Virus record (IMG/VR): IMGVR_UViG_3300021368_001979
Location: 1-26,924 of that record
From: a virus
Direction: 5' to 3' (one strand)
Length of the DNA stretch: 26,924 nucleotides
Below the pieces are notes generated by a model. It did no database searches, was not told where the DNA came from, and saw nothing but the letters and a program-made list of their open reading frames with translations. A program made the position numbers and the translations under genes. Below are positions 1,447 to 22,400 of the stretch, one piece after another; position 1 is the stretch's first letter; each line of letters opens with the position of its first letter.

Positions 1447-1465
1447 CATAAGACAAAAACATCAT

Positions 1466-1636
1466 ATGCAAAAAAATCGCGGAAAAAATTTTAGCACTGT
1501 AGAGGTCGATCCTGTAACAGGCGAATATGTTGTAAAGGTGCCCGAGTTGATCATCTCAGAGTTTGGGTGGTATGAGGGCACAGAGATTAATATGGAAGTC
1601 GATAGTGACTGTATTATGATACAGGAACTTGACTAA
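1466..1636 (+). CDS. AbrB/MazE-like small DNA-binding protein
   Basis: This 56-residue ORF reads from ATG to TAA. Its centre and C-terminus follow the SpoVT/AbrB (swapped-hairpin) pattern: EYVVKVPELIISEFGWYEGT, then INMEVD and CIMIQEL. The family hallmarks are a 'VPxxI...LGxxxGxxI' segment followed by an acidic beta strand and an 'I-x-I' strand. Family members usually dimerise to bind DNA, as antitoxins or transition-state regulators. Here it would be a free-standing minimal domain of typical length. The next gene is not toxin-like, so an antitoxin role has no support from context. Its stop codon overlaps the -35 box of the following promoter. Confidence 0.7.
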   Translation: MQKNRGKNFSTVEVDPVTGEYVVKVPELIISEFGWYEGTEINMEVDSDCIMIQELD

Positions 1637-1657
1637 CGGGTAGTATTCTAGTATAAT
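1629..1657 (+). promoter_or_regulatory. Near-consensus sigma-70 promoter (phage early type)
   Basis: TTGACT at 1629-1634 and TATAAT at 1652-1657 are separated by exactly 17 nt. The -35 box overlaps the stop codon of the preceding small gene. Transcription should start near 1664, giving a leader of about 30 nt for the glycosyltransferase-like gene. It is the best host-type promoter in the window. Confidence 0.8.
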
Positions 1658-1694
1658 TACTTTGAATGCATTCACACTAAAAATTGACTAAGTT

Positions 1695-2456
1695 ATGGCA
1701 AAAGGATTTACAGTAAAAGCAAAGAAGCCGCCCACAGGAGATTCTAGTGCTCCTCAGTATGACTATGAGAAAGCACGGGAGATGATTCGTGGGAAGTCGG
1801 TAGTTTTTTGTCTCCCAGGTCGTGGGGTGTCTTACACCTACCTGAAGAACTTCGTGCAACTTTGTTTTGACATTGTGCAGATGGGAGGGAGTATTCAGAT
1901 CTCCCAGGACTACTCATCAATGGTCAACTTCGCACGTTGTAAGTGTCTGGGAGCTAATGTTCTCCGAGGACCCGACCAGATTCCCTGGGATGGAAAATTA
2001 AAATATGATTATCAGCTGTGGATTGACAGTGATATTGTATTCAACACGGAGAAGTTCCTCCAGCTCGTATTGATGGACCAGGACATCGCCAGTGGTTGGT
2101 ATTGCACCGAAGACGGGCAAACGACCTCTGTTGCTCACTGGATGGAAGAGGATGACTTCAGGAACAATGGTGGAGTCATGAATCATGAGACTATTGAAAC
2201 GATCACCAAGCGTAAGAAGCCTTTCACAGTTGATTATGCTGGTTTCGGATGGTTGCTGATCAAGCATGGAGTCTTTGAGAATGAGAAGATTAAGTATCCT
2301 TGGTTTGCTCCAAAGATGCAAGTCTTTGAGTCTGGTGAAGTTCAGGATATGTGCGGGGAGGATGTCTCGTTCTGTTTGGACGCCATTGATGCAGGTTATG
2401 AGATCTGGTGTGATCCTAATATTCGTGTTGGGCACGAAAAGACTCGTATTATCTGA
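1695..2456 (+). CDS. Glycosyltransferase-like protein (GT-A fold, GT2-like)
   Basis: The 253-residue product has the landmarks of a GT-A glycosyltransferase. An N-terminal beta-alpha unit (SVVFCLPGRG, residues 35-44) is followed by a metal/nucleotide-sugar binding DSD in LWIDSDIVF (DSD at 111-113). A C-terminal GEDVSFCLDAIDAGYEIW (221-238) and a conserved-type His247 in VGHEK complete the pattern. Such enzymes move a sugar from a nucleotide donor to an acceptor; in phages the acceptor may be DNA, a virion protein or host envelope glycan, and the sequence does not say which. The first 25 residues are low-complexity and Lys-rich. The gene follows the sigma-70 promoter and overlaps the next ORF as TGATG, so it probably heads a short early operon. 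Confidence 0.75.
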   Translation: MAKGFTVKAKKPPTGDSSAPQYDYEKAREMIRGKSVVFCLPGRGVSYTYLKNFVQLCFDIVQMGGSIQISQDYSSMVNFARCKCLGANVLRGPDQIPWDGKLKYDYQLWIDSDIVFNTEKFLQLVLMDQDIASGWYCTEDGQTTSVAHWMEEDDFRNNGGVMNHETIETITKRKKPFTVDYAGFGWLLIKHGVFENEKIKYPWFAPKMQVFESGEVQDMCGEDVSFCLDAIDAGYEIWCDPNIRVGHEKTRII

Positions 2457-2641
2457 TGGGGAATAAAGTGAATAAGGATTCCTACACAGTTTTAGTTAAA
2501 GGTGTAGTCAAGTATAAGAACTTGACGGAATCTGAGTATTTTGATATTATGGATGACTTGGCGATAGAGTATTATCAGTCAGGTCATCCGCGCCCCTCGG
2601 ATATTAAAACTATTATAAAAGGAGATTATTATGGCAGTTAG
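2456..2641 (+). CDS. Conserved cyanophage hypothetical protein, 61 residues
   Basis: The ATG at 2456 shares its A with the TGA of the glycosyltransferase-like gene, indicating translational coupling. The product contains VLVKGVVKYKNLTESEYFDIMDDLAIEYY in its middle. I recognise this pattern from small uncharacterised proteins of cyanomyoviruses, but no function is known. There is no signal peptide or membrane segment. Its 3' end overlaps the next gene by 11 nt and contains that gene's ribosome binding site. Confidence 0.75.
   Translation: MGNKVNKDSYTVLVKGVVKYKNLTESEYFDIMDDLAIEYYQSGHPRPSDIKTIIKGDYYGS
2617..2624 (+). promoter_or_regulatory. Strong Shine-Dalgarno inside the upstream gene
   Basis: AAAAGGAG at 2617-2624 lies 6 nt before the ATG at 2631. 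It is one of the best ribosome binding sites in the window and supports the start of the 49-residue basic protein, which overlaps the preceding gene. Confidence 0.75.
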
Positions 2642-2780
2642 ATCTAAAGTTGGTTTAAGTGGTGGTGCTTTTATTGAAGCGAAACCGAAAAAGACTCGTC
2701 AGGGAAGTGGTCAGCACACTAAGTATGCTGCTTCCTCTCGTAATGGGAAGAAGAAGATGTATCGCGGTCAAGGTCGATAA
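2631..2780 (+). CDS. Small basic conserved cyanophage protein, 49 residues
   Basis: ATG to TAA encodes a very basic 49-residue protein with many Lys/Arg and Gly/Ser residues, beginning MAVRSKVGLSGGAFIEAKPK and ending MYRGQGR. The start is fixed by the strong upstream Shine-Dalgarno. The composition suggests nucleic-acid or ribosome binding, but no domain can be named. I recall closely similar small proteins in other T4-like cyanophages, annotated only as hypothetical. It overlaps the previous gene by 11 nt and completes the compact early operon. Confidence 0.7.
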   Translation: MAVRSKVGLSGGAFIEAKPKKTRQGSGQHTKYAASSRNGKKKMYRGQGR

Positions 2781-2807
2781 TACATAGTATAGATTTGTAA
2801 AAATGCT

Positions 2808-3518
2808 ATGGCATGTTTGATTGCTAATCTTCCTTCGCAGGAAGTATGGGTTCGTAAAGAATACCTAACGGATCATCAAAGTGGTCATGGCGAGTTTGTA
2901 AAAGGCGTCTGGGTGTCAGTTAAGTCGATACCTGGGCGTGCTTTTTACTTTGAGACTTACTTACCAGAGTATGCGGCAATGTATGATAAGTTGCCGATTG
3001 CTGCCTTTGTAAGTGAACCAAAGACGCCAGAACCTGATATGAACCTTCCGAATCTACAGTTCTGGAATTGTATGGATTATGGGGTTGTATCAGTCGATAA
3101 GAAGTTTATTGGGTCAATGGACTTTGAGTGTTATACACGCGATCATGGCGCTCAGAAGGGCACGTATGTGTGTACAATCGATAACTATCATCATGACCCC
3201 GATTACGTTGACTGGGCGACCAGTGAGAACCCTGCAGAGCATAAGTCTCATAACCTGATTGAACTGGAGAATGGGCAATATGCACTCTATCCTAATAACA
3301 GACTACGGATTTTTGACAATAGTCTTACTCCTGTTGATCCTAAGATACCTGACTTTAAGGTATCTACTCAATATTATCAGGTAGAAAACGGATTTGACCG
3401 TCTTGGTATGGGTCGTGAAGACGAATACCACTGGAAGACTGCTAAAGAGCGTGAGGAAGAGATTGTAGCAGACGTTGATGATCAGTATCATCACCATTTT
3501 GACGGCAACAATAAATAG
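2808..3518 (+). CDS. Conserved cyanophage hypothetical protein, 236 residues
   Basis: The product is soluble and rich in Tyr, Trp, His and acidic residues, with no signal peptide or membrane segment. It opens with a WVRKEYL motif, has FYFETYLPEYAAMYDKLPI near residues 46-64, and a central FWNCMDYGVVSVDKKFI. It ends in a charged helix (TAKEREEEIV) followed by a DDQYHHHFDGNNK tail. I recall this as a conserved T4-like cyanophage protein of unknown function, and a role cannot be inferred. The start at 2808 is the first in-frame ATG. No good Shine-Dalgarno precedes it, and only a weak TATAGA-like -10 lies upstream. Its TAG stop is embedded in the late promoter of the structural module. Confidence 0.75.
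   Translation: MACLIANLPSQEVWVRKEYLTDHQSGHGEFVKGVWVSVKSIPGRAFYFETYLPEYAAMYDKLPIAAFVSEPKTPEPDMNLPNLQFWNCMDYGVVSVDKKFIGSMDFECYTRDHGAQKGTYVCTIDNYHHDPDYVDWATSENPAEHKSHNLIELENGQYALYPNNRLRIFDNSLTPVDPKIPDFKVSTQYYQVENGFDRLGMGREDEYHWKTAKEREEEIVADVDDQYHHHFDGNNK
3510..3517 (+). promoter_or_regulatory. T4-type late promoter AATAAATA
   Basis: AATAAATA at 3510-3517 fits the NATAAATA form of T4-like late promoters, which are read by host polymerase with the phage late sigma factor gp55. It overlaps the TAG stop of the preceding gene and stands about 58 nt before the ATG at 3575. It is the first late-type signal at the border of the baseplate module. Confidence 0.6.
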
Positions 3519-3522
3519 ACGC

Positions 3523-3542
3523 TAAGGGATGGAAACCCCTTT
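3523..3542 (+). other. Small hairpin in the late leader
   Basis: AAGGG (3524-3528) can pair with CCCTT (3537-3541) around an 8-nt loop, close to the expected 5' end of the late transcript. It could protect the RNA end or be incidental. It lacks the T run of a terminator. Confidence 0.3.
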
Positions 3543-3574
3543 AAAAGTTCTACTAAACCCTAATTAAGAGGACA

Positions 3575-3793
3575 ATGGGACTTTCACCTGTAGATAGAAA
3601 CAAAGATTATATGAAGGAGATGTGGGGCACATCAAGTTTGATTACTGATTATTGGTCAGAACCTAAAAAAACAACAGATCCAGAAGAAAGAGTGATTCAA
3701 GAGGTTTATGGAGACCCTGCCCCCATAAATAAAGTCAAGAAAACTACTGACCAATGGCAATTTCACGGGAGTCAAGAGCATTTAGAGACATAA
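3575..3793 (+). CDS. Hypothetical 72-residue protein overlapping gp25
   Basis: GAGG at 3568-3571 sits just before the ATG. The protein is hydrophilic, begins MGLSPVDRNKDYMKEMWG and continues with Lys/Glu-rich segments and an Asp-Pro-Ala-Pro-Ile stretch; no domain is recognised. Its last 40 nt overlap the first codons of gp25 in another frame. Placement directly behind a late promoter and ahead of gp25 suggests late expression with the baseplate genes. It could be a small structural or assembly protein, but this is positional inference only. Confidence 0.6.
   Translation: MGLSPVDRNKDYMKEMWGTSSLITDYWSEPKKTTDPEERVIQEVYGDPAPINKVKKTTDQWQFHGSQEHLET
3724..3731 (+). promoter_or_regulatory. Possible late promoter CATAAATA just before gp25
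   Basis: CATAAATA lies inside the 72-residue gene, 22 nt before the gp25 ATG, so it would give a very short leader. It matches the late-promoter form but is also coding sequence (Ile-Asn-Lys), and such an octamer can occur by chance in AT-rich DNA. Confidence 0.4.
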
Positions 3794-4155
3794 GTCTGTC
3801 TTTTGAACCACATCCTGTGACCAAAGACTTGCCTATTCTGAAGAATGCTAGAGCAATCACACGTTCAGTTCAGAATTTAGTAGAGACGATTCCTACAGAA
3901 AGGTTTTTTCAACCTCTTTTAGGGTCTGATGTACGGGCAAGTCTTTTTGATTTTGTTGATTTTGCTACTGCAAGTGTTATTGAAGAGCAAATCATAACAA
4001 CTGTCAATAACTTTGAGCCTAGAGTTGATAATGTTAGTGTTGAAGTAGATCCTCAACCAGACAATAACACATTTGCTGTTACTGTCTTTTATGATATTGT
4101 TGGTCAAGACTTTCCCACACAAGAATTTACATTCCTGCTAGAGGCAACAAGGTAA
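3754..4155 (+). CDS. 25: Baseplate wedge / sheath initiator gp25
   Basis: The 133-residue product belongs to the GPW/gp25 family and matches T4 gp25 in length (about 132). It has a typical N-terminus, RSVQNLVETIPTERFFQPLLGSDVR (residues 37-61), the conserved EPR motif at 88-90 within NNFEPRVDNV, and a closing strand (EFTFLLEATR). gp25 sits at the junction of wedge and tube and nucleates sheath polymerisation; the EPR motif contributes to its contact with the gp6/gp7 wedge core. The start at 3754 agrees with the MAISR N-terminus I recall for cyanophage gp25 and forces a 40-nt overlap with the upstream gene. gp6 begins 4 nt after its stop. Confidence 0.95.
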   Translation: MAISRESRAFRDISLSFEPHPVTKDLPILKNARAITRSVQNLVETIPTERFFQPLLGSDVRASLFDFVDFATASVIEEQIITTVNNFEPRVDNVSVEVDPQPDNNTFAVTVFYDIVGQDFPTQEFTFLLEATR

Positions 4156-6041: not shown

Positions 6042-9000
6042 ATGATACAAACCGGGTTTGAAAGAAGGGTCAAGATTCAGCAGGTCATTGCTAATCAACT
6101 TCCAGAATTTCTGAGAGCTGAAAGTCCCAAATCTATTGACTTCTTCAAACAATACTACGTTTCGCAGGAATATCAGAGTGGTCCAACAGATCTTGTTGAG
6201 AATTTAGACCAATATCTGAAACTTGACAACCTTACACCAGAAGTTGTAAGTGGATATACTAGTTTGTCTGCTGGTATTTCTGCTACTGCTGATACTGTTG
6301 AAGTAGAATCTACCAAGGGTTTCCCTAATGAGTACGGTCTCTTCAAGATTAATGATGAAATTATAACATATACTGGCATTACCACCAACTCTTTTACGGG
6401 ATGTATTAGAGGTTTTAGTGGTATTACCTCTTATCGTTCTTCCCTAAATCCAGAAGAACTAGTTTTTGAAGATACCAATCAGGCATCTCATGGTGCTGGT
6501 ACTGTAGTTCAAAACCTTAGTTCTCTCTTCTTAAAAGAATTCTACAAGAAATTAAAATATTCTTTTGCTCCTGGTCTAGAAGATGTTGATTTTGTAGATA
6601 ATTTAGACGTTAATAACTTTATCAAAGAGATAAGAAGTCTCTACGAAGCAAAAGGAACAGAAGATTCTTTCAAAATTTTATTCAAAGTTCTATATGGTGT
6701 TGATCCAAAGGTAATTGATTTAGAAGATTACTTAATCAAACCATCTACAGCAACCTATACAAGAAGAGAAGAAGTTGTTGTTGAAAGGATTTCTGGAGAT
6801 CCAAATAAGTTAATTGGTCAAACTATTACAAAATCTAGTGATAGTGCTACTAATGCTGCAGTATCTGAAGTAGAAATCTTCACTCGTTCTGGTATTAGCA
6901 CCTACTACAAACTTAAATTATTTGTTGGATTTGATGATAGAGATCTTATTGAAGGAACTTTTGATGTTCAGGCATCTACAAAGGTCATTAATCCAGTTAG
7001 TGTTGGTGCATCTGTTATTACCGTAGACTCTACGATTGGTTTTGGACAAACTGGCACGGTTATTTCTGGAAGAAATACTATTGAATATACTGATAAGACT
7101 GTAAATCAGTTTCTTGGATGTACTGGTATTGGAACTGCTATCCCAACTGCTACTGAACTAAGAACTGATGAGTATTATATTGGATATGAAAATGGTGATA
7201 CCACAAAACCAGTTAAGATCCGTATTGGAGGAGTTCTTTCAGAATTCAATCAAATTGGAGATGTTCTGCTTTCTAGTGAAGGTCAGAAAATCTACGTTAA
7301 GAATATTGGTAAGAAAATAAAAAATCCCGAACTTAATAAGACTGATGAGCAAATATTTGCAAATAGTTGGATTTATAACACAAGTTGTAGATTTGAAGTA
7401 AAAAGCGTCTCTGGTGCTACATTCCAGTTGAAGAGCAATATTGATAAATCTAGTCTAAAGATTGGAGATACTGTAGATATTCTCAATGGTAGCACAGAAA
7501 CTGTAGAGCATAGCAATGCAACTGTTTCTATTGTTGATGTTACCAATAAGCAAATTACACTTGATAATCTTGCCGGATTTACTGAAGATCCTGCTATCAA
7601 CTATACAATCCGAAGAAAACTGAATACCGCTACCAGTAGCGGTGCTGCTCTGTTCTATGGCGATGATAACATTACCACTGATGTTCAGAACTTGTATGTT
7701 GATGACGATTTTGCCTATGTTGCATCTAACTCTTTACCATCCTATGATATTGTTGAAGACACTTTAAGTTCTACTCTGGCAAATGCTAGCGGAAGTTCTC
7801 TTCAAGACTTTGATAATTCTACTTTAAAATATAATATTATTTCTTTTAGTAGTGATGTTCCTTTCATAACTGGTGATGAAGTCTCCTATAAAGCAGGCGC
7901 AGACACCCTTGTAGGCGTCTCTGAGGGCACTTATTATGTGGAAGTTCTCGGTATCCCCAATCAGATTAAACTATACGCTTCTAGGTCATTAGTTGGAAGT
8001 GGCACTAATTTACAGTTCACTGCTCCCGATAACGACGGCACTCACAAATTTACCATTGAGAGTCAGAAGAGTGAAAAGATTTATCCTTCACAGTCTCTGA
8101 AAAAGTTCCCACTTGTAAGAAATATTGCTGATGGGAATGCAACTCCTACTATTCCAGGATCTACTGGGATGTTAGTTAATGGTGTTGAAATCATTAACTA
8201 TAAAACACCAGATAAGATTTACTATGGTCCTATTAAGAAAGCGAATTTGTTCAATGGTGGTACTGGATATGATGTAATCAATCCACCAACTATTGAGATT
8301 ACTGCTGCCGCTAGTGGATTTACAACTGCTTTAGTAAGACCTGTTGTTAAAGGTCAAGTAAATAATGTTCAGGTTGATCCACAAGATTTTGACCTGCTTG
8401 ATGTTACTTCTATCACTATTACTGGTGGTAATGGTTCTGGTGCTGTTTTAGAACCAATTGTAGAGACAAGATATCGTGAAATTGAGTTTGATGCTCGTTT
8501 AGATGTAGTAGGTGGTGGTCTTAACATCAATAGCGAGACTATTACTTTTACTACACAACATAATCTTAGAAATGGTGATCGTGTTGTTTATAGTAGAAAT
8601 GGAAATCCTGCTCTTGGTATAGGAACTTTTGGTGGTTCTAATGCACACCAAGATAGGGCACTTTCAAGCGGTTCAGTCTATTATGCTGAAGTTGTCAATA
8701 GCACTAGCATTAAAATCTTTGATTCCCAGGATGACTTTAACGCTGGAATCAATACTGTAGGATTTACTACATCATCTAGTGGTCTTCATAAGTTTAGGTT
8801 GTTTGATGGAAAGAAAACGTTAAGTTCCATTAAAGTGATTGACTCTGGTAGTGGATATGAAAACAGATTACTGAAGGTTAAACCTGTAAATATCTCCACT
8901 GTAGAAGATACTATTACATTTAAGAACCACGGATTCTCTGATGGTGATAAGATTGTCTATTCTAGTGATGGCGACTCCGTATTGAATCCTGCAGTCCAAT

Positions 9001-12000
9001 ATCAGGTTATTAAACTTGATGACGATACTTTCAAACTTGCTAACGCTGGTGTTGGTGGAACAATCACCACAAACTACATCAAAAAGAATTATGTAAGTCT
9101 CCATGCGTTCAACAGCTCTAGTGGTACTTTCCAAAACTTTGCATATCCTCCAATTACAATAACCGTAAATGCTGAGTTTGATGGTGTATCTGGAGTTATC
9201 ACAGCAACTCCTTCTATTAGAGGTGAGATTGTTGACCTTTATCTGTATGAAACTGGAACGGGATATGGTTCTACTATTCTAAACTTCCACAAGAAACCAG
9301 ATATTCTTGTTAAGACTGGTAAGAATGCTGAACTAAAACCAATTATATCTGAAGGTAGCGTAAGTTCCGTTCAAGTAACTAGTGGTGGTAGTGAGTATTC
9401 ATCTGCTCCAGATATAGAAGTTAGGGGAGATGGTGTTGGTGCTAAGGTGAGAGCGATCGTAAGTAATGGGAAAATAATTAATACTGTTGTATTGAATGGA
9501 GGTGTTGGATATACTCAGAACAATACTACTATCGCTGTTACTTCTGCAGGTGCTCGCGCTGTTCTTGGATTAGAAGTCAGAGATCTTACACTCAATGGTC
9601 ATGATAGATTTGGTGATGAGATTTTACTTGAATCTGGCGACAAACTCCAATATGGTATGGTTGGTTATTCAACTGCCATTGGTCTTAATAATTTTGACGA
9701 CGATGGTCAATCACATTCCCCAATCATTGGATGGGCATATGATGGAAACCCCATATATGGTGGTTATTCTTACACTGACCCCTCAGATATAGACTCTGAT
9801 ATTAAGATTCTTGATAGTGGGTATGAGTTATTATCTTCCGATGTTATTGATAGACCATCTGGATTTGCTGATGGTTTCTTTGTTGAAGACTATAAGTTCA
9901 CCGCTTCTGGTGATTTGGATGAGCATAATGGTAGATACTCTAAGACTCCAGAGTTTCCAAATGGTGTCTATGCCTATCATGCTGCCATCACTTCAGATGG
10001 TAAGAATAGTAAGTTCCCATTCTTTGTAGGTAATACTTACACTTCTATCCCTTGCAGACAAGATGTTGATCAAACATTCGATTTCAATTCTTCTAGTCTC
10101 AGAAGAAATACTCTGCCATATGTTGCAGGCGATAAGTATGCTAATAATGACTTTACATCAGAACCTAATGAGGTAATTGCACAATCTGCAGTTATTGATT
10201 CTATCACACAAGGTTCTGTTGATGGATTTAATATTAATGTTGCTGGTTCTGATTATAGAGTTGGTGAATTAGTTTCTTTTGATAATGATGAAACTAATGG
10301 TGGTGGTCTGAGTGCTTATGTAAGTAAAGTTACTGGTAAATCTATCGTTGATGTTGTAACAACTACTTTATCTTATGATAATACCATTTTAGTTTGGAAC
10401 GATAACAATGTATCTGTTACTGTAGACCCATCACATGAATATCTTGATAATGAACAAGTTGAGATATCTGGTCTGTCTACATTTGTTTCTGGACTGATTA
10501 AATCTCACATAATTGGTGTAACTTCTGAGAGAACTCGTCTTTCTATTGAAGCACCAGCAAACTCCACTGTTGGTTTTGTAACCGATATTTTCGTTAATCG
10601 AATTGTTGATTCAATCTCTGTAGGAAGCACTCTGCGCATCGGTACAGAGGTTCTTTCAGTATTAGGTACATTCCCTAACAATAAGGTTTTAAGGGTAATC
10701 AGAGGCACAGCAGGCACCGCACAGACTGCAACAAGTGAAGTGTTTGTATCTCCCAGATCTTTTACGCTTCCAGTAAGTGTACCATACTTTGAATCTTCTA
10801 TAAACGATAAGGTATTCTTCAATCCTCAACAGTCTGTTGGTATTGGAACAACTACAGGATTGTCGTTACTCAAGAAATATTTTATTGGTTCCCGAGATTA
10901 TGATGTCTCTGTTCCTATTCAGGGAATATACATTCCAGATCATCCATTCATCACTGGTCAGGAAGTTACATTTGAAAGATTGACTGGTGCGAATAATATT
11001 ACAGTGTCTGATTTGGCAACTGGTAGTGCTACATTCAATATACCAGCATCTGGAGATAGTCAAACCTTATTTGTAATTAACAAGGGTGAGAACATAATCG
11101 GTCTCTGCACACAAGTTGGTCTTACTACAAATACCAATGGTCTCTATTTCAGATCAGCTCCAACTAATGGTGATAGTTCTGATTTTAGATATTCTTTGAC
11201 TTCAAACAAAACTCAAGTAACTGCTAGAGCAGAACGTATTAAGGCAAGAGTTGCCGTCTCTACTGCACACGGTCTTAATAATGGAGATATTGTTGATCTA
11301 ACAGTCAATCCTAACCAATCAGTAGGTATTGGAACTTCTGTATCGGTATATCTTAAGTATAACTCTACTCATGACAAATTACTGATCAATCCTATTGGAT
11401 TTACTTCTGAGTCAGTTTCTACTACTACAGATACTATTACGATCACGAATCATGGATTTAAAACTGGCGATAAAGTCTTCTATGAATCTGATCTGAATAT
11501 AACTGGTCTTTCTGAAGGTTCATATTTTGTTTATAGACTTGATGATGATAATTTTAATCTTACGAATACGAAGTATGATGCAGTTTCTTTTCCTCCAACT
11601 GTTGTAAGTCTTGGTTCTACTGGTGGTGCTGCTCAAGAACTATCTTTAATCAATCCTAATCTTGATGTTATTAGAAATAATAATCTTGTATTTAATACTT
11701 CTGATACTTCATTAAGTGGATATAACTTTAACTTATACTATGATAAAGAATTCAAGAACCCACTTGTTTCTGTTGGAAGCTCAACTACATTCAGCACCGT
11801 TGGTTTAGGAACTGTTGGTGTAACATCAACTGCAACCTTTACTTTAAACTATGAGAAGAGTCTTCCTTCTAAGATTTACTATCAGATAGACAAAGGTAAT
11901 TACATTAGTACTGCCGATACTGAAGTAACTAATTACTCTGAAATATCTTTTTCTGATAGCGCATATACAGGACAATATTCTATTACTGGTGCCGGCGGAA

Positions 12001-15000
12001 CAGTTTTTACTGTTTCCTTAAAAGATAATCCAGAAACTCTTGAATATACTCAAAATAACACAAGCACTCTGAAGTATGAAACTTCATCTGAAAGAGCAGT
12101 GGGTGGTGTTGCAGATCTTGCAATTACTTTTGGTGGAGCAAACTATAAAAAACTTCCTAAGTTTGTAAGTATTGCTTCTACTGCAGGAATTAATGCAGAT
12201 ATTATTCCAACTTCCAATACTATCGGTAGAATTAATCAGGTCACAATCAAAGATACTGGATTTGATTTTTCGGCAGATAAAACTCTAAATCCAGAAGTTT
12301 ATATCTCTCCAAATGTCAATATTATTAATAGGAACACTATTAGTGATATTGAAGTTACAGATGGTGGCAGAAATTATACTTCTGCTCCAGATCTTGTTCT
12401 TGTTGATCCAAATACAGGTTCTGTGTATACAAATGGTAATCTTATTGCCAAAATGCAGGGTTCTTCAATTATTAGTGTGAATATATTGGAATCTCCAAAA
12501 GGAGTTTCTGATACTGTATCTAAAGTATATTCAGTTAATAATAGTAATGGCGTTGGTATTAGTAGTGTATTCAGTTCTGCTTCTGGTATTGTGACATGTG
12601 TTCTTAACACACCAATTACTACAGGATTTACTAGCGCACCATTTTCTCCTGGAGATTTTGTGTTCTCTGAAAATATTGGTCTAGCATCTTCTGAAGGAAC
12701 TGGATTTAACTCTGCAGATTACAAATATAATTTCTTTAGAGTTACTGCATATAGAAATACTAACCCTGCTGAGGTTGAGTTTGATCTTGATACAACTAAT
12801 GCTGGAATCGCTGTAACTGATGCTTCAAGCACATTTGGTTTACTTGTTAATAAGAAAAACTATCCAATATTCAATGTAATTCAAACACCATTAGATTTTA
12901 TTATTGGAGAACCTCTACTCATTAAATCTGGTGGCGATTATACAGAAATTGATTTGATTGTCACTGAAAATCTTAATGACTCAATCAAAGTTTATGGATC
13001 TTATGATCTTGTTGCTAATGATTGTATTGTTGGTCAAAATTCTGGAACAGTAGCAACTGTCAATACTATTACAGAAAATGAGGGTGTTTTTAAGATTGAT
13101 TATTCTTTGACTACAGAGAACGGTTGGTCTGATGATATTGGCAAACTCAATGAAGACTATCAGGTCACCCCAGATAATGATTACTATCAAAATCTTTCTT
13201 ACAGTATCAAGAGTCCTATTGAGTTTGAAGATTGGGTAAATCCTGTTAATAGAGTTATTCACTCTTCTGGTCTGAAGAACTTTGCAGATACTGGTATTAC
13301 TTCAACCGCTAAAGTTTCTACCGCTCAAACAGCATCTAGTTCTAGTGATGCTCTCCTCGATATTATTAATGTAAACGATTCTGGTGAAGTTATGAGAGTT
13401 GATACTATCAACTTCTTTGACTTTGGTATTGATGTAGATACTTCAAACGAAAAATCTAAATTTATCAAATTCCGAAATAAGAGACTTTCAGATTATATTG
13501 AGTGTAGAACTAACAGAGTTCTTACGATTGATAACTTTAATAATCTGTTCTCCAATCAAGAAAATGCAAACAGCACTTTATATAAGGATATTGATATCTT
13601 TAACCCCAATGATGGACTTAGTAGATATTTCCTTCAGATAATCAAACCCGATGGTACAGAAGTTCAAGCAACTGAAGTTATCATTATCAATTCTCCAAAT
13701 GATGACTTAATTACTGTTGAAAGAGCAAGTTCTCATAGTACAGATGATGATCTTGCAAGTATTCAAGCAATAACTGATAGTTTTGGTTCTTCTTCTCTCA
13801 GACTTACTCCAGCAGATCCATATAATAAAGATTTGGATGTTAAGTTTATCAAGAATAACTTCAATACAACTCTTGCCGGTATTGGTACACAATCTGTCGG
13901 TTTTGTAAATCTGATTGGTGGTAATGTTTCTGTTTCTACGGCATCAACAAGCACTGTTTATGCAAGCCCTGTTGGTGCAGTGGAGTCTATCTTTGCTACC
14001 GTTGAACTTACGGATACGATCACAAAGGATAAGACGGTTGTTGATATGTTCATTGATCATAATGGAACAGATACATTTAAGTCTGACTTCTTCTTTGATA
14101 ACAGTCCTAAGACTGGTTCTTCCGATAAATTTATTGGAACATTCACTAGCAATATTGATTCTGGTATTCTGAAGTTAGATTTTGAGAATACAGAATCTAA
14201 TCCTGTTTTAGTTCGCTCTAGAATTGTTGGATTTGGAACTACTGCTACCGGTATTGGTACTCATACCTTCAAAGCATCTGGTCAACCAGATGATTCTGTA
14301 AGAGAGGGTAGATTGGAATCATCTTTCTCCAAAATCCCAAATACTGGAATTTCTACAATTAGAACTTATGATCTTTCTGATGTAACTACTGTAAAATCTA
14401 CTGCTAAAGTTTCTTACGGAAATACTTCTGCTTTGCATCAAGTATTGTACAATCATGATCAAACGGATGCTTTCGCGATGCAGTATCCATTCCTTTCCAA
14501 TAATGATGTTATTGGTATTGGAACATTTGGTGCAGACATTGATGGTACTGAATTTAATCTTATATTCTATCCAGATGCAAATATTAATGAAGAAATCACA
14601 GTTCAATTGTATAGTGAACTAATACAAACCGAAAAAGATCTTAACAACGTACCTGCAGTATTGACCTATGGATCGATAAATGAGCAACTGAAGACATCGC
14701 AATTTGATGCTGTAAATGGAGACAGAACTAACATCTTTGACTTTGATGTTAAGCATAACGGTATTCCTATCTTTGAGAAGCAGTTTAATCCAGCAGACTC
14801 TACTGCTGTAGACCTCGCCACTGGTACATTCTCAATCTCAGATCACTTCTTCAGCAATCAAGAAAAACTAATCTATACTCCAAGATCCACATTTATTAAT
14901 AGTGGTTTTGGTTCTATGGTTATGACTGGTGGCGATCCACTTCCTCGCGAAGTATTTGCTATCAAGGTAAACAATGACCAGTTTAGAGTTTCTCTAACTG

Positions 15001-17912
15001 CTGGTGGTTCTGCTATTACATTTGAAGGTGATGGTGATGGAAATGGTCATACCTTTGAAATGGAGAAGAAGTTAGAGAAGTCTTTAATTACGATTGATGG
15101 TATCACCAGATCACCTCTGGCATTTAGTCCCGTCAATCATACGATTGATAATGAAGCAAATGTTTCCATAGCAGATACTTATATTGGTTTATCTGGCATT
15201 TCTTCCATTCTTCCAGGCGATGTTCTAAAAATTGATAATGAGTTTGCTAAAGTTGATGCTGTTGGTCTTGGAACAACTACTGCTGGACCTATCATTGGAG
15301 TTGGTTCTGTAAATCTTGTTAAACTTGAAAGGGGTTATGTAGGAACCTCAGCATCGACACATGATGATGGTGCTTCTGTCAGAGTATTCAGAGGTTCTTA
15401 CAATATGACTAGAAGTAAGATTCACTTTACTGAAGCACCTAGAGGTAATACTCAGGAATTGGTTGATAATAGCAATATCCCATACTTCAAGTCTACTTTC
15501 AATGGTAGAGTATATTTGAGAGATGATTACAGCACCAACCAAATCTATGATAGTATTACTCAGCAGTTTACTGGTATTGGTGCTACTTATAGATTGACTG
15601 TTGGTGGTATTAATACAACTGGTATTGAAACTGGTAGTGGTGTTCTGTTTATTAATAATATCTTCCAGACACCAACAACTGATAATAACACTGGTGGAAA
15701 TTATTCGTTTACTGAAAGTGCTGGAATTTCTAGTGTTGTATTCAGTGGAGTTGTAGATGATAGTGGCGATTTGGTTATCTCTGAAGAAGATGTGAACAAG
15801 AATCAACTACCAAGAGGTGGTATGATTGTTTCCCTTGGTTCTACTCAGGGTCTTGGTATTGCTCCTCTGGTTGGTGCCGCTGTAACTGCTGTAGTTGCTG
15901 GTGGTGTTATTACTGGAGTTGGAATTGGAACAACTGACATTGTTGGTTCTGGATATCGTGGAACAGTTTCCATTGGTGTTACAGATCCAAACCACTCTGG
16001 AAACGCAGCAACTATCACTGCTACTGTTGGTGCTGGTGGAACACTATCCTTTACTGTAAGTGATGGTGGTTCTGGTTATAGTGCCAACCCACAAATCAAT
16101 ATTCCTTCACCATCTTACGAAAATCTGCCTATCACAGGTGTTTCTCGTCTTGGTATTGGTGCTACAACTGATACTGGTAATGGTCTCCTTCTGAATGTTG
16201 AAGTTGGTGCTGCAATCACTGCTGTTGGTATTGGATCCACACTCTTTGAAGTCAAGAACTTCAAGATTACTAGAAATGGTTATGGTTTCCAAAAGGGCGA
16301 TAAATTCAAGGTGGTTGGTCTTGTAACTGATAGATATCTAACTTCTATGGTCAGTGAACCAGAATTTGAAGTTCTGGAAATCTTTAATGATAAATTTGCT
16401 GCCTGGCAATTTGGTGAACTTGACTATATTGACTCAGTTAATAGTCTGGTTGATGGTAGTCGCACAAGATTCCCACTCATCTATAAAGGTGAGTTAGTAA
16501 GTTTTGAAGTCAATTTGGATAATCCAGATTCTGCTGAAATAGATCTTGAAGCAGTTCTCCTTGTTTATGTAAATGGTGTTGTTCAGGAACCTAATGTTCA
16601 CTACAACTTTGTTGGTGGCACATCAATCGTATTTACAACTGCACCATCATCTAATGATAATATTGACATCTTCTTCTACAGAGGTACAAGAGGAACAGAT
16701 AGTGTATTTGTAGATACTGATCCTAGCATCAAAGTTGGAGATTTGATTAAACTGAAGAAGATTGAGCAGAGTGTTGAACAGGATGCTAGAACGGTTTATA
16801 ACCTAAATTCTTCCGACAAAGTAGAGACTAACATTTATACTGGATTTGGTATTGATGAAGTCAACTACAAACCAATTAGTTGGACTAAGCAGAAAGTTGA
16901 TAAGATTATTGGTGGCGAATTTACGTCAAAAGATAGAGATTCTATTGAAGCTCTGGTTTATCCAACTGCAAAAGTTATTGGTAATATTACGAATAGTGCA
17001 ACTGAAATCTTTGTTGATGACGCACAGTTCTTTAATTATGAAGAAAATGAATCTGCTATTGTGATTGATGATTTTGACGCAATACTAGTGAACACCTCAA
17101 CTGAACCAGTTTCTGCTGCTGTAACTGCTGTAGTTTCTGTTGCAGGAACTATTAGTTCCTTAGATATTACTGCAGGTGGATCTGGTTATTCGGGTTCTGC
17201 AACTATTAAGATTGCTTCTCCTAAAGAAGTTGGAGTTGGTGTTGGTACTACTGCTACTGCAACGGCAACTATTACAAATGGCACTATTTCTGCAGTAACA
17301 TTAACAAATGCAGGTTTAGGTTATACAACTTCTGCTCCTCCACAAGTTCTGGTTTCGGCACCGGCAATTTCTTATGAGAACTTGAGCGAGATTACCACTG
17401 TAATTGGTTATGCTGCAACTATTACTGGAATTTCAACGGTTGAAGGTATTGGAACTCCATTAGGACTTGAGTTCAGTTTTACCACGGCTAACTCTGCTGA
17501 TCTTGCAGTAGGATTCCCAATCGTGGTTAAGAATACTGGTGTTGGTCTCCCCGGCGATGGCATCATTTCTATTGATGGTTCTGATACAGAAACGGTAGGA
17601 ATTGGAACAAACTTCCTTAATAATATTTACATTGTTGCTGCTGTTCATATGCCAAGTGGAAATACTGGAATTGCTACATGCAATATTCTTTCTACAACCG
17701 ACCATGTTGGTTTAGGAACTACAGGAAGCGTCACTGATCCACGCGGTGAGTTGTCTTGGGGTAGACTTTCTGGATTCTCCAGAGCAAGTTCTCCAATTTC
17801 TATCGGTGTTACAGGTCTCACGGTTGATTCTGGATTGTCAACATTCCCAACAATTCAGAGACGTGGATTTGGATTAAGAGAGAATGGTTCACTCAGAAAG
17901 GACCTGGGATAA
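6042..17912 (+). CDS. 7: Giant gp7-type baseplate wedge protein with modular expansion
   Basis: The ORF encodes 3956 residues, about four times T4 gp7 (about 1030). The first roughly 240 residues carry the gp7 signature found near the C-terminal part of T4 gp7: a helical FFKQYYVSQEYQSGPTD block and GTEDSFKILFKVLYGVDPKV near 205-224. Most of the rest is beta-rich repeats. HG(F/L)xxGDxV modules ending in a 'LDDDxFxL' strand lie near residues 600-676, 832-921, 953-1027, 1456-1520, 1620-1721, 1733-1790, 1792-1867 and 2929-3013. GGxGY modules lie near 739, 933, 1068-1176, 2026-2168, 3292-3428 and 3705-3774. A YHYH-type domain spans about 1195-1335. A tail-fibre-like segment (VYVNGVVQEPNVHYNF) lies at about 3465-3554. 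No catalytic triad was seen. It probably keeps the wedge-core role of gp7 and adds surface-exposed modules. The start at 6042 follows the gp6 stop by 1 nt. Confidence 0.85.
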   Translation: MIQTGFERRVKIQQVIANQLPEFLRAESPKSIDFFKQYYVSQEYQSGPTDLVENLDQYLKLDNLTPEVVSGYTSLSAGISATADTVEVESTKGFPNEYGLFKINDEIITYTGITTNSFTGCIRGFSGITSYRSSLNPEELVFEDTNQASHGAGTVVQNLSSLFLKEFYKKLKYSFAPGLEDVDFVDNLDVNNFIKEIRSLYEAKGTEDSFKILFKVLYGVDPKVIDLEDYLIKPSTATYTRREEVVVERISGDPNKLIGQTITKSSDSATNAAVSEVEIFTRSGISTYYKLKLFVGFDDRDLIEGTFDVQASTKVINPVSVGASVITVDSTIGFGQTGTVISGRNTIEYTDKTVNQFLGCTGIGTAIPTATELRTDEYYIGYENGDTTKPVKIRIGGVLSEFNQIGDVLLSSEGQKIYVKNIGKKIKNPELNKTDEQIFANSWIYNTSCRFEVKSVSGATFQLKSNIDKSSLKIGDTVDILNGSTETVEHSNATVSIVDVTNKQITLDNLAGFTEDPAINYTIRRKLNTATSSGAALFYGDDNITTDVQNLYVDDDFAYVASNSLPSYDIVEDTLSSTLANASGSSLQDFDNSTLKYNIISFSSDVPFITGDEVSYKAGADTLVGVSEGTYYVEVLGIPNQIKLYASRSLVGSGTNLQFTAPDNDGTHKFTIESQKSEKIYPSQSLKKFPLVRNIADGNATPTIPGSTGMLVNGVEIINYKTPDKIYYGPIKKANLFNGGTGYDVINPPTIEITAAASGFTTALVRPVVKGQVNNVQVDPQDFDLLDVTSITITGGNGSGAVLEPIVETRYREIEFDARLDVVGGGLNINSETITFTTQHNLRNGDRVVYSRNGNPALGIGTFGGSNAHQDRALSSGSVYYAEVVNSTSIKIFDSQDDFNAGINTVGFTTSSSGLHKFRLFDGKKTLSSIKVIDSGSGYENRLLKVKPVNISTVEDTITFKNHGFSDGDKIVYSSDGDSVLNPAVQYQVIKLDDDTFKLANAGVGGTITTNYIKKNYVSLHAFNSSSGTFQNFAYPPITITVNAEFDGVSGVITATPSIRGEIVDLYLYETGTGYGSTILNFHKKPDILVKTGKNAELKPIISEGSVSSVQVTSGGSEYSSAPDIEVRGDGVGAKVRAIVSNGKIINTVVLNGGVGYTQNNTTIAVTSAGARAVLGLEVRDLTLNGHDRFGDEILLESGDKLQYGMVGYSTAIGLNNFDDDGQSHSPIIGWAYDGNPIYGGYSYTDPSDIDSDIKILDSGYELLSSDVIDRPSGFADGFFVEDYKFTASGDLDEHNGRYSKTPEFPNGVYAYHAAITSDGKNSKFPFFVGNTYTSIPCRQDVDQTFDFNSSSLRRNTLPYVAGDKYANNDFTSEPNEVIAQSAVIDSITQGSVDGFNINVAGSDYRVGELVSFDNDETNGGGLSAYVSKVTGKSIVDVVTTTLSYDNTILVWNDNNVSVTVDPSHEYLDNEQVEISGLSTFVSGLIKSHIIGVTSERTRLSIEAPANSTVGFVTDIFVNRIVDSISVGSTLRIGTEVLSVLGTFPNNKVLRVIRGTAGTAQTATSEVFVSPRSFTLPVSVPYFESSINDKVFFNPQQSVGIGTTTGLSLLKKYFIGSRDYDVSVPIQGIYIPDHPFITGQEVTFERLTGANNITVSDLATGSATFNIPASGDSQTLFVINKGENIIGLCTQVGLTTNTNGLYFRSAPTNGDSSDFRYSLTSNKTQVTARAERIKARVAVSTAHGLNNGDIVDLTVNPNQSVGIGTSVSVYLKYNSTHDKLLINPIGFTSESVSTTTDTITITNHGFKTGDKVFYESDLNITGLSEGSYFVYRLDDDNFNLTNTKYDAVSFPPTVVSLGSTGGAAQELSLINPNLDVIRNNNLVFNTSDTSLSGYNFNLYYDKEFKNPLVSVGSSTTFSTVGLGTVGVTSTATFTLNYEKSLPSKIYYQIDKGNYISTADTEVTNYSEISFSDSAYTGQYSITGAGGTVFTVSLKDNPETLEYTQNNTSTLKYETSSERAVGGVADLAITFGGANYKKLPKFVSIASTAGINADIIPTSNTIGRINQVTIKDTGFDFSADKTLNPEVYISPNVNIINRNTISDIEVTDGGRNYTSAPDLVLVDPNTGSVYTNGNLIAKMQGSSIISVNILESPKGVSDTVSKVYSVNNSNGVGISSVFSSASGIVTCVLNTPITTGFTSAPFSPGDFVFSENIGLASSEGTGFNSADYKYNFFRVTAYRNTNPAEVEFDLDTTNAGIAVTDASSTFGLLVNKKNYPIFNVIQTPLDFIIGEPLLIKSGGDYTEIDLIVTENLNDSIKVYGSYDLVANDCIVGQNSGTVATVNTITENEGVFKIDYSLTTENGWSDDIGKLNEDYQVTPDNDYYQNLSYSIKSPIEFEDWVNPVNRVIHSSGLKNFADTGITSTAKVSTAQTASSSSDALLDIINVNDSGEVMRVDTINFFDFGIDVDTSNEKSKFIKFRNKRLSDYIECRTNRVLTIDNFNNLFSNQENANSTLYKDIDIFNPNDGLSRYFLQIIKPDGTEVQATEVIIINSPNDDLITVERASSHSTDDDLASIQAITDSFGSSSLRLTPADPYNKDLDVKFIKNNFNTTLAGIGTQSVGFVNLIGGNVSVSTASTSTVYASPVGAVESIFATVELTDTITKDKTVVDMFIDHNGTDTFKSDFFFDNSPKTGSSDKFIGTFTSNIDSGILKLDFENTESNPVLVRSRIVGFGTTATGIGTHTFKASGQPDDSVREGRLESSFSKIPNTGISTIRTYDLSDVTTVKSTAKVSYGNTSALHQVLYNHDQTDAFAMQYPFLSNNDVIGIGTFGADIDGTEFNLIFYPDANINEEITVQLYSELIQTEKDLNNVPAVLTYGSINEQLKTSQFDAVNGDRTNIFDFDVKHNGIPIFEKQFNPADSTAVDLATGTFSISDHFFSNQEKLIYTPRSTFINSGFGSMVMTGGDPLPREVFAIKVNNDQFRVSLTAGGSAITFEGDGDGNGHTFEMEKKLEKSLITIDGITRSPLAFSPVNHTIDNEANVSIADTYIGLSGISSILPGDVLKIDNEFAKVDAVGLGTTTAGPIIGVGSVNLVKLERGYVGTSASTHDDGASVRVFRGSYNMTRSKIHFTEAPRGNTQELVDNSNIPYFKSTFNGRVYLRDDYSTNQIYDSITQQFTGIGATYRLTVGGINTTGIETGSGVLFINNIFQTPTTDNNTGGNYSFTESAGISSVVFSGVVDDSGDLVISEEDVNKNQLPRGGMIVSLGSTQGLGIAPLVGAAVTAVVAGGVITGVGIGTTDIVGSGYRGTVSIGVTDPNHSGNAATITATVGAGGTLSFTVSDGGSGYSANPQINIPSPSYENLPITGVSRLGIGATTDTGNGLLLNVEVGAAITAVGIGSTLFEVKNFKITRNGYGFQKGDKFKVVGLVTDRYLTSMVSEPEFEVLEIFNDKFAAWQFGELDYIDSVNSLVDGSRTRFPLIYKGELVSFEVNLDNPDSAEIDLEAVLLVYVNGVVQEPNVHYNFVGGTSIVFTTAPSSNDNIDIFFYRGTRGTDSVFVDTDPSIKVGDLIKLKKIEQSVEQDARTVYNLNSSDKVETNIYTGFGIDEVNYKPISWTKQKVDKIIGGEFTSKDRDSIEALVYPTAKVIGNITNSATEIFVDDAQFFNYEENESAIVIDDFDAILVNTSTEPVSAAVTAVVSVAGTISSLDITAGGSGYSGSATIKIASPKEVGVGVGTTATATATITNGTISAVTLTNAGLGYTTSAPPQVLVSAPAISYENLSEITTVIGYAATITGISTVEGIGTPLGLEFSFTTANSADLAVGFPIVVKNTGVGLPGDGIISIDGSDTETVGIGTNFLNNIYIVAAVHMPSGNTGIATCNILSTTDHVGLGTTGSVTDPRGELSWGRLSGFSRASSPISIGVTGLTVDSGLSTFPTIQRRGFGLRENGSLRKDLG
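7839..11640 (+). repeat. Array of HG(F/L)xxGDxV beta modules in the gp7-type protein
   Basis: At least seven degenerate protein modules recur here. Each starts with a strand such as ITFKNHGF, ITFTTQHNL, ITITNHGF or VAVSTAHGL, then a GDxV turn and an aromatic strand, and closes with a 'Y.V..LDDD.F.L' type strand. The pattern resembles modules in phage tail proteins that are often matched by the E1 FCCH-domain profile. They are interrupted by GGxGY modules and a YHYH-type domain. The repeats are conserved as protein, not as DNA. Confidence 0.6.
9625..10041 (+). other. YHYH-type domain embedded in the gp7-type protein
   Basis: Residues about 1195-1335 of the giant protein read SHSPIIGWAYDGNPIYGGY, later a DEHNGRYSKTPEFPNGVYAYH motif and FPFFVGNTY. 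This order (HSPIIGWAxDGxPIYG, xxNGR, TPEYPxGxYAYH, FPYxxG) is the signature of the YHYH family, otherwise seen in secreted bacterial and algal proteins. Function of the family is poorly defined; metal or glycan contact through the His/Tyr cluster is a reasonable guess. The motif His is present (YAYH), so the site looks intact. Confidence 0.75.
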
Positions 17913-19491: not shown

Positions 19492-22400
19492 ATGCCACAG
19501 AAAACAAATTTAAATATTAATCCTTATTTTGACGATTTCGATAAGGATAAGAACTTCTATAAAGTTCTTTTCAAACCAGGATTTCCAGTTCAAGCAAGAG
19601 AACTAACGACTCTACAGTCTATACTACAGAACCAGATAGAATCGTTCGGTAGTCATATGTTCAAAGAGGGATCAATGGTGATCCCTGGAAATATCACTTA
19701 TGATTCGCAATATTCGGCAGTTAAGTTAAATGCAGATCATCTTGGCATTGATATTTCCGTATATGCTAATAACCTTGTAGGTTTAAGAGTAAAGGGACAA
19801 AATTCTGGTATTGTTGCTAAAGTTGATAAGTTTGAGAATACATCAGAATCTGGGGGGATTACTAATCCAACACTCTTTGTTAAGTATATTCAGTCTGGGG
19901 ATAATAATGAAATTAAACCATTTGAAGATGGTGAAGTTCTCATAACTGAAGATTCTTTTACTTATGGTAATACCTCCATCAACGCTGGTGAAACTGTAGC
20001 ATCTCTTATTAGCGAAGATGCCACAGGTGTAGGTAGTGCTTTTAGTATTGAACCTGGGGTATATTTTATCAGAGGAACATTTGTAGATGTTGGTTCTGAT
20101 ACGATTATTTTAGATCCATATACAAATACTCCATCTTATAGAGTTGGTTTGACCATTCTTGAAGATATTGTCACTGCTAAGGATGATTCTTCTCTTTATG
20201 ATAATGCTAAAGGATTTTCAAACTATGCTGCTCCAGGAGCGGATAGATTTAGAATTACTCTTAGTCTGTCTAAAAAACTCTTAAGTGATAATGATGATAA
20301 GACTTTCGTCGAATTGATGAGAGTTGATAATGGTGAAATCAAGAAACTTCAAGATGGGTCAACATACAATCTGATTAGAGATTATCTTGCAGAAAGAACT
20401 TATGATGAGTCTGGTAACTATTCTCTCAATGCTTTCGATATTGAGGTCAGAGAATCCTTAAATGATAGACTTGGTAATGAGGGCGTATATTTTTCTGGGC
20501 AAGAAACAGATCAAGGAAATACTCCTAGTGAAGACTTGATGGGTGTGTCTGTCTCTCCAGGCAAGGCATACGTCAAGGGATTTGATGTAGAAAATATTTC
20601 TACCACTATCGTTGATGTTGAGAAACCAAGAGATACAAAGTCGATTACAAACTCTCTTGTTCCATTTGAAATGGGCACGCTAATGCGTGTTAATAATGTT
20701 CAAGGAACTCCATTTTTAGGTATAAACAATAATAGCAACACTGTAAGACTTCAAAATCAGAGAAGAGGAACTTCTACAAACGGTGCTACTGGTACTGAAA
20801 TTGGTATAGCAAGAGTTTATAACTTTAGTCTTACTGATAGTGCTCAAACAAATTTATCCACTTCTTGGGATCTGTATTTGTTTGATATTCAAACATATAC
20901 CTCCATTACTTTAAATGAAATTACATTTACTGCTGATGTTCCAGTTAGTTCTTATGTTAGAGGCGTAAGCAGTGGTGCTACTGGTTATGTTCAAACTGCT
21001 CCAGGTGGTGGTATCAATCTTGTTTTAAGACAGACTTCTGGAACTTTCATTGCTGGTGAACAACTTATTTTTAATGAAAATCCAGAACTTTCCCGTTCTA
21101 TTAAAGATGTTGTTAACCATACTATTAATGATGTTAAATCAGTATATCAGGACTGTACTGCTATTACTGGAGAACTAAAACAAGATTTTATTGCCGATCT
21201 GATTCTCGATAAGGTACACCCAACTGGTTTTGGTATTGCTGATCAAGTTGAAATCACCAATGCCGGTGTAATGAAATGTCCTGGTAAATTCTTTAATAGT
21301 TTAAAAGTTGGTGATATAGTCATATATCAACTTACAGGCAGACCTGTTGAAACTTTTAATAGAGTTTCTACTATTAGTGCAGATTTACTAACAGTTCAAC
21401 TTTCTGAGGTTGAAGATATAGCAAATGTCTGTGATGGTAATTTTCCAGGTGCCGATGCTGTCGTTCCTTTCACTGTAGGCAGACCTTTTGTTAGAGACCG
21501 TGGCGGATTGTACGCCCCTCTTGAAGAAACTAGCGTTTCTTCTGTAGAACTTGCAGATTCTAATCTTTTAGTTTCAGTTCAACTTAGACAACGAACTACA
21601 GATTCTGTAGGAGGTCTTCAGATAAATGTAAGTGATACCAATATCGCTAACGCCAGATTTGAAGCGTTTGATCAAGAAAGGTATAGTATTCATTATACTG
21701 ATGGCACTATTGAAACTTTGTCTTCAGATCAGGTAACTATTAGTACTAACGGACAGGTTTTAACTTTTACAGGATTGACTGCAGGTCAGTCTAGCAATGT
21801 AACGGTTAATGTTACTGTAAAGAAAATTGGAATTACTAATAAATCTAAAAATCTTACCAGAAGTACAAAACTAGAATTAACCAAGTCTGCTACTGGTATA
21901 TCAACTTCAATTTCTTCAACAACTCAAGGAGATTTCTACGGAACTAGAATTCAAGATAGAGAAATCTCTCTGAATGTTCCCGATGCTGTAAATGTCGTTG
22001 CAGTTTATGAGTCTTTAGGAACTTCTACCCCAACATTAGATTCTCTCGAATTCCCTGCTGGACTGGCACTCAATACAGAATCTATCCTTGGCGAAAAAGT
22101 TATTGGTCAAACTAGCAATTCTATTGCACAGGTAGTTACTAGATCTTCTTCCACAAAAGTGGAGATTGTTTATCTGAGTCAAGATAAGTTTATTGCTGGA
22201 GAGAATGTATCTTTTGAAGAGTCTGGAATTGTTGCTCCACTTCAAGTTATTGGTCTTGGAAATTATCTTGATGTAACTAGAAACTATACTCTTAACAAAG
22301 CTGTGAGAGAGCAGTTCTATGATTATTCCAGAATTGAAAGAAAGGATAATATAAATTATGTTCCATCCAGAAAACTTTTAATTATCTTCAATCATTATGA

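Follow-up and report, generated by a model that had tools for sequence, protein, structure and literature searches.

The closest described systems are the baseplate wedge proteins gp7 of phage T4 and gp17 of phage XM1. T4 gp7 is a monomer with six copies per tail, and one of its domains is bound by gp9 (PMC3004832, in excerpt). The association of gp7 with two gp6 chains in a wedge, six per baseplate, is known for both T4 (PMC3004832, in excerpt) and XM1 (PMC10457771, in excerpt). In XM1 the ortholog gp17 has 242 aa, and its inner loop (residues 80-106) and C-terminal tail (201-242) form the attachment place that holds 12 spikes (PMC10457771, in excerpt). Compact gp7s of the Pfam family PF23786 (Baseplate_wedge) include those of Ochrobactrum phage OC (631 aa), BUCT-ZZ01 (607 aa), Mosig (874 aa) and Melnitz-3 (896 aa).

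For cyanophages, the giant gene and the name gp7 are already known from GenBank records (S-SM2, P-HM2), and the proteins called gp7 or 'baseplate wedge initiator' in S-SM2, P-HM2, S-SSM7 and Bellamy (phrog_2885) belong to the same family as the giant protein described here. A 2020 comparative study nevertheless states, in the excerpt available, that VrlC takes the place of a missing gp7 in cyano- and pelagimyophages (PMC7029224). The present analysis contradicts this statement: gp7 is present in these phages, in split or shortened form. The Pelagibacter phage Mosig, for example, encodes a PF23786 protein (44 bits, cut-off 27) beside a gp6-like gene and upstream of gp8. What appears to be new is the splitting of the gp7 core by insertion, of which no description was found in the excerpts of open-licence PMC literature searched.

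The giant gene and its neighbours

The window, that is, the whole 26,924-nt stretch of viral DNA analysed, is a 26.9-kb fragment of its virus genome, and the single-copy counts given below come from the genomes of relatives. One open frame takes up 11,871 nt or 44% of it, as the first-pass annotation had stated, and lies between gp6 and gp8 in a cluster of wedge genes, which is the position of gp7 (Table 1). In the wedge core, of composition (gp6)2-gp7, the giant protein would be expected to pair with gp6. The giant protein scores 3,742 bits against phrog_2885 ('baseplate wedge subunit'), its residues 1-240 match 471 phage records, and core blocks A, B and D fall within a single open frame in 43 IMG/VR contigs; motif and frame are therefore not a product of chance. 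With the phrog_2885 match, the core blocks and the gp6-gp8 position, the earlier reading of an enlarged gp7-type wedge protein stands, and the giant ORF is identified from its sequence as an ortholog of T4 gp7.

Table 1. Features of the window, with nucleotide positions in the 26,924-nt stretch; residue ranges of core blocks, inserts and domains refer to the giant protein.
Feature	Residues or length	Position	Strand	Evidence
gp25 wedge protein	133 aa	3754..4155	+	PF04965 E 1.5e-12; phrog_261 E 9e-53
gp6 wedge protein	626 aa	4160..6040	+	PF21379 E 4e-17; phrog_219 E 1.7e-206
Giant gp7-type wedge protein	3,956 aa	6042..17912	+	ATG start; 424 kDa computed; without internal stop
Core block A, helical	11-63	6072..6230	+	Leave-out HMM E 3.3e-4 at Z 100,000; helices in model
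Site 1 insert, holding 'GFP'-type beta module (73-129)	64-165	6231..6536	+	Gap comparison; repeat profile; model
Core block B, helical, with GTEDSFKILFKVLYGVDPKV	166-233	6537..6740	+	Leave-out HMM E 5.9e-7; PDB match to T4-type gp7; alignment
Domain V, first part	238-310	6753..6971	+	Model aligns with T4 gp7
Second 'GFP'-type beta module, apparently nested in domain V	311-377	6972..7172	+	Repeat profile; model; structural match
Domain V, last strand region, boundary uncertain	378-405	7173..7256	+	Extent of T4 gp7 structural match
Main insertion, beta-module chain, about 1,960 aa	about 406-2365	7257..13136	+	B-D gap; repeat profiles; beta structure in modelled part
YHYH domain (PF14240), degenerate motif YAYH	1220-1317	9699..9992	+	89.6 bits, cut-off 25
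Core block D, containing DNDYYQNLSYSIKSPIEFEDWVNPVNRVIHSSGLKNF	2367-2420	13140..13301	+	Leave-out HMM E 9.4e-8; alignment
C-terminal part, 1,536 aa	2421-3956	13302..17909	+	Gap series; relatives search
Beta domain, tentatively similar to C-terminal domain of the fibre connector T4 gp9	2619-2735	13896..14246	+	VIA; Foldseek
gp8 wedge protein, GGxGY module at 215-274	515 aa	17941..19488	+	PF09215 E 1.8e-12; phrog_438 E 1e-156

The nearest named relatives for residues 1-240 are S-SKS1 and S-SRM01 (64%), and nt 1464-3700 of the window are 74% identical to S-SKS1; the window virus is therefore Synechococcus-phage-like. The match to S-SKS1 starts right after a G+C-rich stretch at 1-1460 (G+C 0.49-0.58 compared with about 0.34-0.46 elsewhere), which has negative GC skew and only small ORFs; these features suggest a recently acquired stretch or a junction.

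Core blocks and the insertions between them

Residues 2340-2462, deep inside the giant protein, are among its most widely kept parts (439 phage records at E<=1), and it was this region, with the block D that the first-pass annotation had missed, that pointed to the compact gp7s. In these, A, B and D all lie within a few hundred residues; in OC gp7, A occupies residues 6-58, B 62-126 and D 226-278. Aligned directly, T4 gp7 and the window gave weak matches (BLASTP E 0.003; phmmer to the Klebsiella phage gp7, PDB 9f4a, E 0.086), and a shallow profile-profile comparison yielded P 1.2e-5 at the N-terminus but no reliable match for the middle. The compact gp7s therefore served as a bridge between the two.

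Leave-out HMMs were built from compact gp7s alone, with T4 and the window family excluded to guard against circularity and E-values given for 100,000 sequences. In the window they recover A, B and D in conserved order at 23.1, 31.8 and 34.0 bits, against 6.8, 5.6 and 4.6 bits for the best of 3,270 reversed or shuffled decoys. In T4 gp7 the same test finds B (29.9 bits, E 2.4e-6), whereas A (8.0 bits) and D (4.6 bits) are not significant in the strictest leave-out, D doing no better than decoys. Since D of T4 stands at decoy level there, its assignment rests on the matches of T4-like phages and on a less strict profile. With the window family added, T4 D reaches 11.2 bits (best decoy 5.1), T4 A falls to 1.9 bits, and D exceeds 8 bits in 22 of 110 T4-set frames.

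Searches from the compact side lead to the same T4 protein. When run against the whole PDB, a compact A+B profile (33 rows, T4 excluded) returned T4 gp7 as its top match (aa 647-758, E 8.5e-9), and a whole-core profile (8 rows) aligned unbroken, D included, to aa 650-897 of the Klebsiella phage gp7 (E 2.1e-7). A tblastn search with OC gp7 matched 1,175 phage records, in which T4-like gp7s were contiguous over residues 3-273 (E 4e-5). With A and B present in the window, the profile searches confirm the wedge signature that had been proposed for the first 240 residues: the GTEDSFKILFKVLYGVDPKV motif lies at aa 205-224 of the giant ORF, and the T4 counterpart of its block is C-terminal, near aa 732-758 of 1,032.

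PF23786 alone gives the intact window protein 13.6 bits, below the cut-off of 27, and on a profile of nine compact gp7s the window core scores 91.4 bits without inserts versus 64.9 intact. Random 23-aa fillers reach 92.9 bits compared with 91.4, and the junction near domain V is not resolvable from sequence; the insertion border was set at about 406, and the module at 311-377 was taken as nested in V, because the structural match stops near aa 399-405. That match comes from an AlphaFold model of residues 1-1200 (mean pLDDT 73.8, core helices near 50-58), in which domain V (238-405) aligns with T4 gp7 (5iv5_BJ, 760-849) at Z 8.6 (rmsd 3.5, 85 residues) and with the 9f4a_A0 gp7 at Z 8.2. Foldseek alone is weak for domain V (9f4a_A0, E 0.062), and with the model of residues 1-1200 it retrieved nothing at E<=0.001. 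Block D modelled outside its context has low confidence. Domain V, on predicted structure, and block D are nonetheless counterparts of T4 gp7 in the remainder of the protein, for which the first-pass annotation had seen none. Taken together, profiles and models make it nearly certain that the protein has a split core, in which A, B, V and D are interrupted by insertions and to which a separate C-terminal part is added.

It has also to be asked whether the frame is gp7 at all. A fibre or tape-like protein with a borrowed motif would fit the lack of sequence relatives in the PDB for the greater part of the chain (searches of the PDB with residues 301-1090, 1041-1480 and 2421-3956 gave nothing at E<=0.1), as well as the published view that VrlC stands in for a missing gp7 (PMC7029224, in excerpt). 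This explanation is scarcely credible in the face of three ordered core blocks, the domain V match, the gene order and the single copy per genome; VrlC, moreover, is encoded by separate genes that lie beside gp7, after gp8. Another gene with core blocks, which the first-pass annotation had named as a refuting find, was seen in none of the 16 relatives' genomes, the window itself being a 26.9-kb fragment.

Accepting the protein as a gp7, its likeness to the T4 form (PDB 5HX2, 5IV5) consists in the A-B-V-D core, the order gp6-gp7-gp8 and the single copy. In T4 gp7, by contrast, about 640 residues precede the core, B and D are separated by a short gap, D is followed by 135 aa, and YHYH and repeat modules are missing. 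The window protein has no match to the T4 Pfam domains Gp7_helical, Gp7_5th and Gp7_6th (for Gp7_6th none at E<=1); it starts at block A, without the domains of N-terminal aa 1-640 and without Gp7_6th, and so falls outside the narrow Straboviridae form of gp7. The compact gp7s also start at block A and represent the undivided form of the giant's core, from which they differ in lacking both the giant insertion and YHYH. Since these compact forms likewise do without the 640-residue N-terminal part of T4, the loss of that part proposed in the first-pass annotation is not implied, and the XM1 ortholog has a mere 242 aa (PMC10457771, in excerpt). The N-terminal 640 aa of T4 gp7 are more simply explained as a gain of the T4 lineage.

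Length series, copy number and history

Gap lengths were compared in 207 frames with A, B and D each above 10 bits. At site 1, the A-B gap, 78 OC-like frames have 3-5 aa, 66 Melnitz-like frames 107-113 aa and 43 window-like frames 102-104 aa, and P-RSM4 and S-RIM8 reach 608-610 aa. The B-D gap measures 97-437 aa in OC-like, 389-458 aa in Melnitz-like and 2,116-2,197 aa in all 43 window-like frames (2,133 aa in the window), with 1,799-2,720 aa in the remaining giants and 1,615 aa in MC09. Complete compact ORFs have 400-1,032 aa (69 OC-like) or 896-1,061 aa (57 Melnitz-like), and expanded gp7s extend from MC09 (1,942 aa) through S-CAM1 (3,032), S-SRM01 (3,895), S-SM2 (4,156) and P-HM2 (4,454) to S-RIM8 (6,395) and P-RSM4 (6,603 aa). 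This graded series of 400 to 6,603 aa offers material for studying how thousands of residues can be accommodated within a single core fold of a symmetric machine.

MC09 has the large insertion and just 49 aa beyond D, so that the insertion and the C-terminal part are separate additions. The huge C-terminal extension described earlier is therefore partly right: 1,536 aa do follow D in the window, but about half of the extra length is an insertion inside the core. Among the gp7s tested, the C-terminal part is common only to those of S-SRM01, S-SM2 and P-SSM5, the clear relatives being found with residues 2500-3140.

Repeat profiles find 10 GGxGY repeats (one at E 0.35), six 'HGL' and two 'GFP' repeats in the window protein; the labels are our own, and 'GFP' stands for a GFP-x-x-I-x-x-EII repeat, not for the fluorescent protein. 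GGxGY repeats number 21 in S-RIM8, 18 in P-RSM4, 15 in P-HM2, 13 in S-SM2, 8 each in S-CAM1 and MC09, and 7 in S-SRM01. Smaller gp7s have three each (Melnitz, Mosig, DLP6) or two (RHph), and the profiles detect none in OC, BUCT, Cr30 and T4. In an alignment, contigs L152 and L161 carry two GGxGY repeats, about 80 aa in all, at a point where L115-L119 have none, a small step of the same expansion process.

A single B and a single D were found in each of the 16 relatives' genomes, 10 of which had contributed rows to the block profiles, and they share one frame in all but S-SKS1. The deposited gp7 gene of S-SKS1 (L006:20001-32387) is broken, with tblastn pieces in frames 1, 3, 2 and 1 and an unannotated start, owing either to sequencing error or to real decay. 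A second gp7 gene in P-HM2 was considered and ruled out: PHM2_094 (L279:551-7822), annotated as 'gp7 baseplate wedge subunit', matches neither B nor D. It shares GGxGY and HGL modules only, and was likely named gp7 through this module similarity.

In a gp6 tree, with S-SKS1 counted through its broken gene and P-SSM5 through an open-ended frame, the 10 phages with a gp7 of >1,900 aa form one side of one branch (93/97), adjoining Melnitz and Mosig (874-896 aa). A single origin of the expansion is thus favoured by the gp6 sequences, though not proven, because the support of 93/97 narrowly misses the tool's star. BUCT-ZZ01 infects Synechococcus elongatus and has a gp7 of 607 aa, which weakens the idea that expansion tracks cyanobacterial hosts as such.

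Predicted role of the added modules

Overall, we consider it probable that the giant is a split-core gp7, present once per wedge, with a modular rim for fibre docking or host contact; for the added parts by themselves, a role in a baseplate rim and in docking has about an even chance. The compact core of A, B, V and D would, like its counterparts in T4 and XM1, link two gp6 chains and so form the core of the wedge. The chain would then exit the wedge, extend outwards through successive beta modules and return, such that D closes the core. Six copies could form a rim surrounding the baseplate, and this rim, together with the C-terminal part, may dock tail fibres or contact the cell surface. Expanded gp7 might in this way do the work of the separate T4 peripheral proteins gp9, gp10 and gp11. 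The XM1 loop and tail that hold spikes offer a precedent for enlarging such places in gp7, with the difference that short loops hold separate spikes there, whereas the giant has thousands of built-in residues (likened by description; PMC10457771, in excerpt). A baseplate corona or appendages made of the added parts are plausible as a candidate structure. The presence of a gp7, split or shortened, provides a wedge model for abundant marine viruses, and for structural work it singles out 280 residues, in a chain of 4,000, as those that belong beside gp6.

A chain of this giant size could be cleaved after translation, a short gp7 staying in the wedge and the remainder forming a separate structure, and cleavage of several tail proteins is known in other phages. 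In expanded forms, however, block D sits beyond the insertion, and the chain must come back to complete the core. In the sibling S-CREM2, ORF122 (1,937 aa by its coordinates) is found in virions with 91 unique peptides; the excerpted proteomics table lists a single ORF, with peptides counted for the whole of it (PMC10665884, Table 3). Both points make cleavage improbable.

One tentative elaboration is that in this cyanophage clade gp7 would form a one-chain baseplate rim with a built-in gp9-like fibre-docking domain, fibres sitting on gp7 itself and the T4-type connector having been dropped. In a model of residues 2150-3349 (mean pLDDT 69.4), the beta domain in the C-terminal part aligns with residues 169-285 of 1qex at VIA Z 7.6 (rmsd 2.6, 113 residues), a Z range that the tool calls common, and with 9f4a_LA at Z 6.4; Foldseek gives probability 1.00 and E 2.7e-3. 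The same model matches predicted viral structures that include cyanophage tail fibres and the gp9plus10 protein of Aeromonas phage 65. The remaining VIA matches, to ubiquitin E1, EF-Tu and ATPase barrels, were discarded as small beta barrels of a common kind. Searched by sequence, gp9 proteins had no match in the gp9-like region of the window gp7. The gp9-like fold suggested by the model is thus a lead, not proof.

The distribution of the region across phages can be set beside this lead. The gp9-like region occurs in gp7 of the window, S-SRM01, S-SM2 and P-SSM5, and the T4-type gp9/gp10 N-terminus was looked for and not found in S-SRM01, S-SM2, S-SKS1 and P-SSM5. S-RIM8 and P-RSM4 have the gp9/gp10-type N-terminus and lack the gp9-like region. 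P-HM2, S-CAM1 and MC09 have neither, so that the pattern is only suggestive. In Melnitz and Mosig, the genes directly after compact gp7 (L108:7328-7459, L109:6716-6847) begin with a T4 gp9/gp10-type N-terminus, which is common to the gp9 of S-RIM8 and P-RSM4.

Alternatively, the modules themselves may be a receptor-binding adhesin, with gp7 binding the cyanobacterial surface directly and setting host range. The string of beta modules, the YHYH domain and the fibre-like predicted folds speak for such an adhesin. We hold it to be unlikely, given that the insertion is not hypervariable: the B-D gap stays within 2,116-2,197 aa in 43 of 43 loci, and against five relatives the insertion shows 67-72% identity. 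In the same comparisons dN/dS is 0.13-0.21 in the added parts and 0.08-0.11 in residues 1-310, rough values because dS is close to 1 or above it. Such constancy of length, together with moderate conservation, points to a scaffold or dock rather than to a fast-changing adhesin.

The YHYH domain raises the further question of enzymatic activity. YHYH domains of jumbo phages are predicted metal hydrolases, with a His triad and Asp described (PMC7824862, in excerpt), and by this comparison gp7 could serve at the tail as a metal hydrolase for opening the cell wall. Within the gp7 frame, PF14240 exceeds its cut-off in the window and in all 9 expanded genomes (for S-SKS1, in a piece of the broken gene), and in none of the eight non-expanded genomes. 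In an alignment of 155 rows D1234, D1283 and D1293 are invariant and H1225 is kept in 151. The first motif His is nevertheless replaced in all 155 rows (position 1311: A 148, S 6, V 1), and the second is present in 56 (position 1313: F 90, H 56, Y 9); HYH occurs in 0 of 190 six-frame motif matches at the collected loci. Since the motif His is lost in most rows, the predicted His triad is not kept, and a hydrolase is highly improbable here.

Modules of the kinds seen in gp7 also occur in the genes downstream of it. The window gp8 has 515 aa compared with 334 in T4 and holds one GGxGY module, so that the same repeat has entered a second wedge protein. It is followed at 19492-26541 by a gene for a DUF4815 protein (phrog_358, 2,349 aa), whose position corresponds to that of the VrlC genes after gp8 and which contains a single 'GFP' module at aa 1936-1984.
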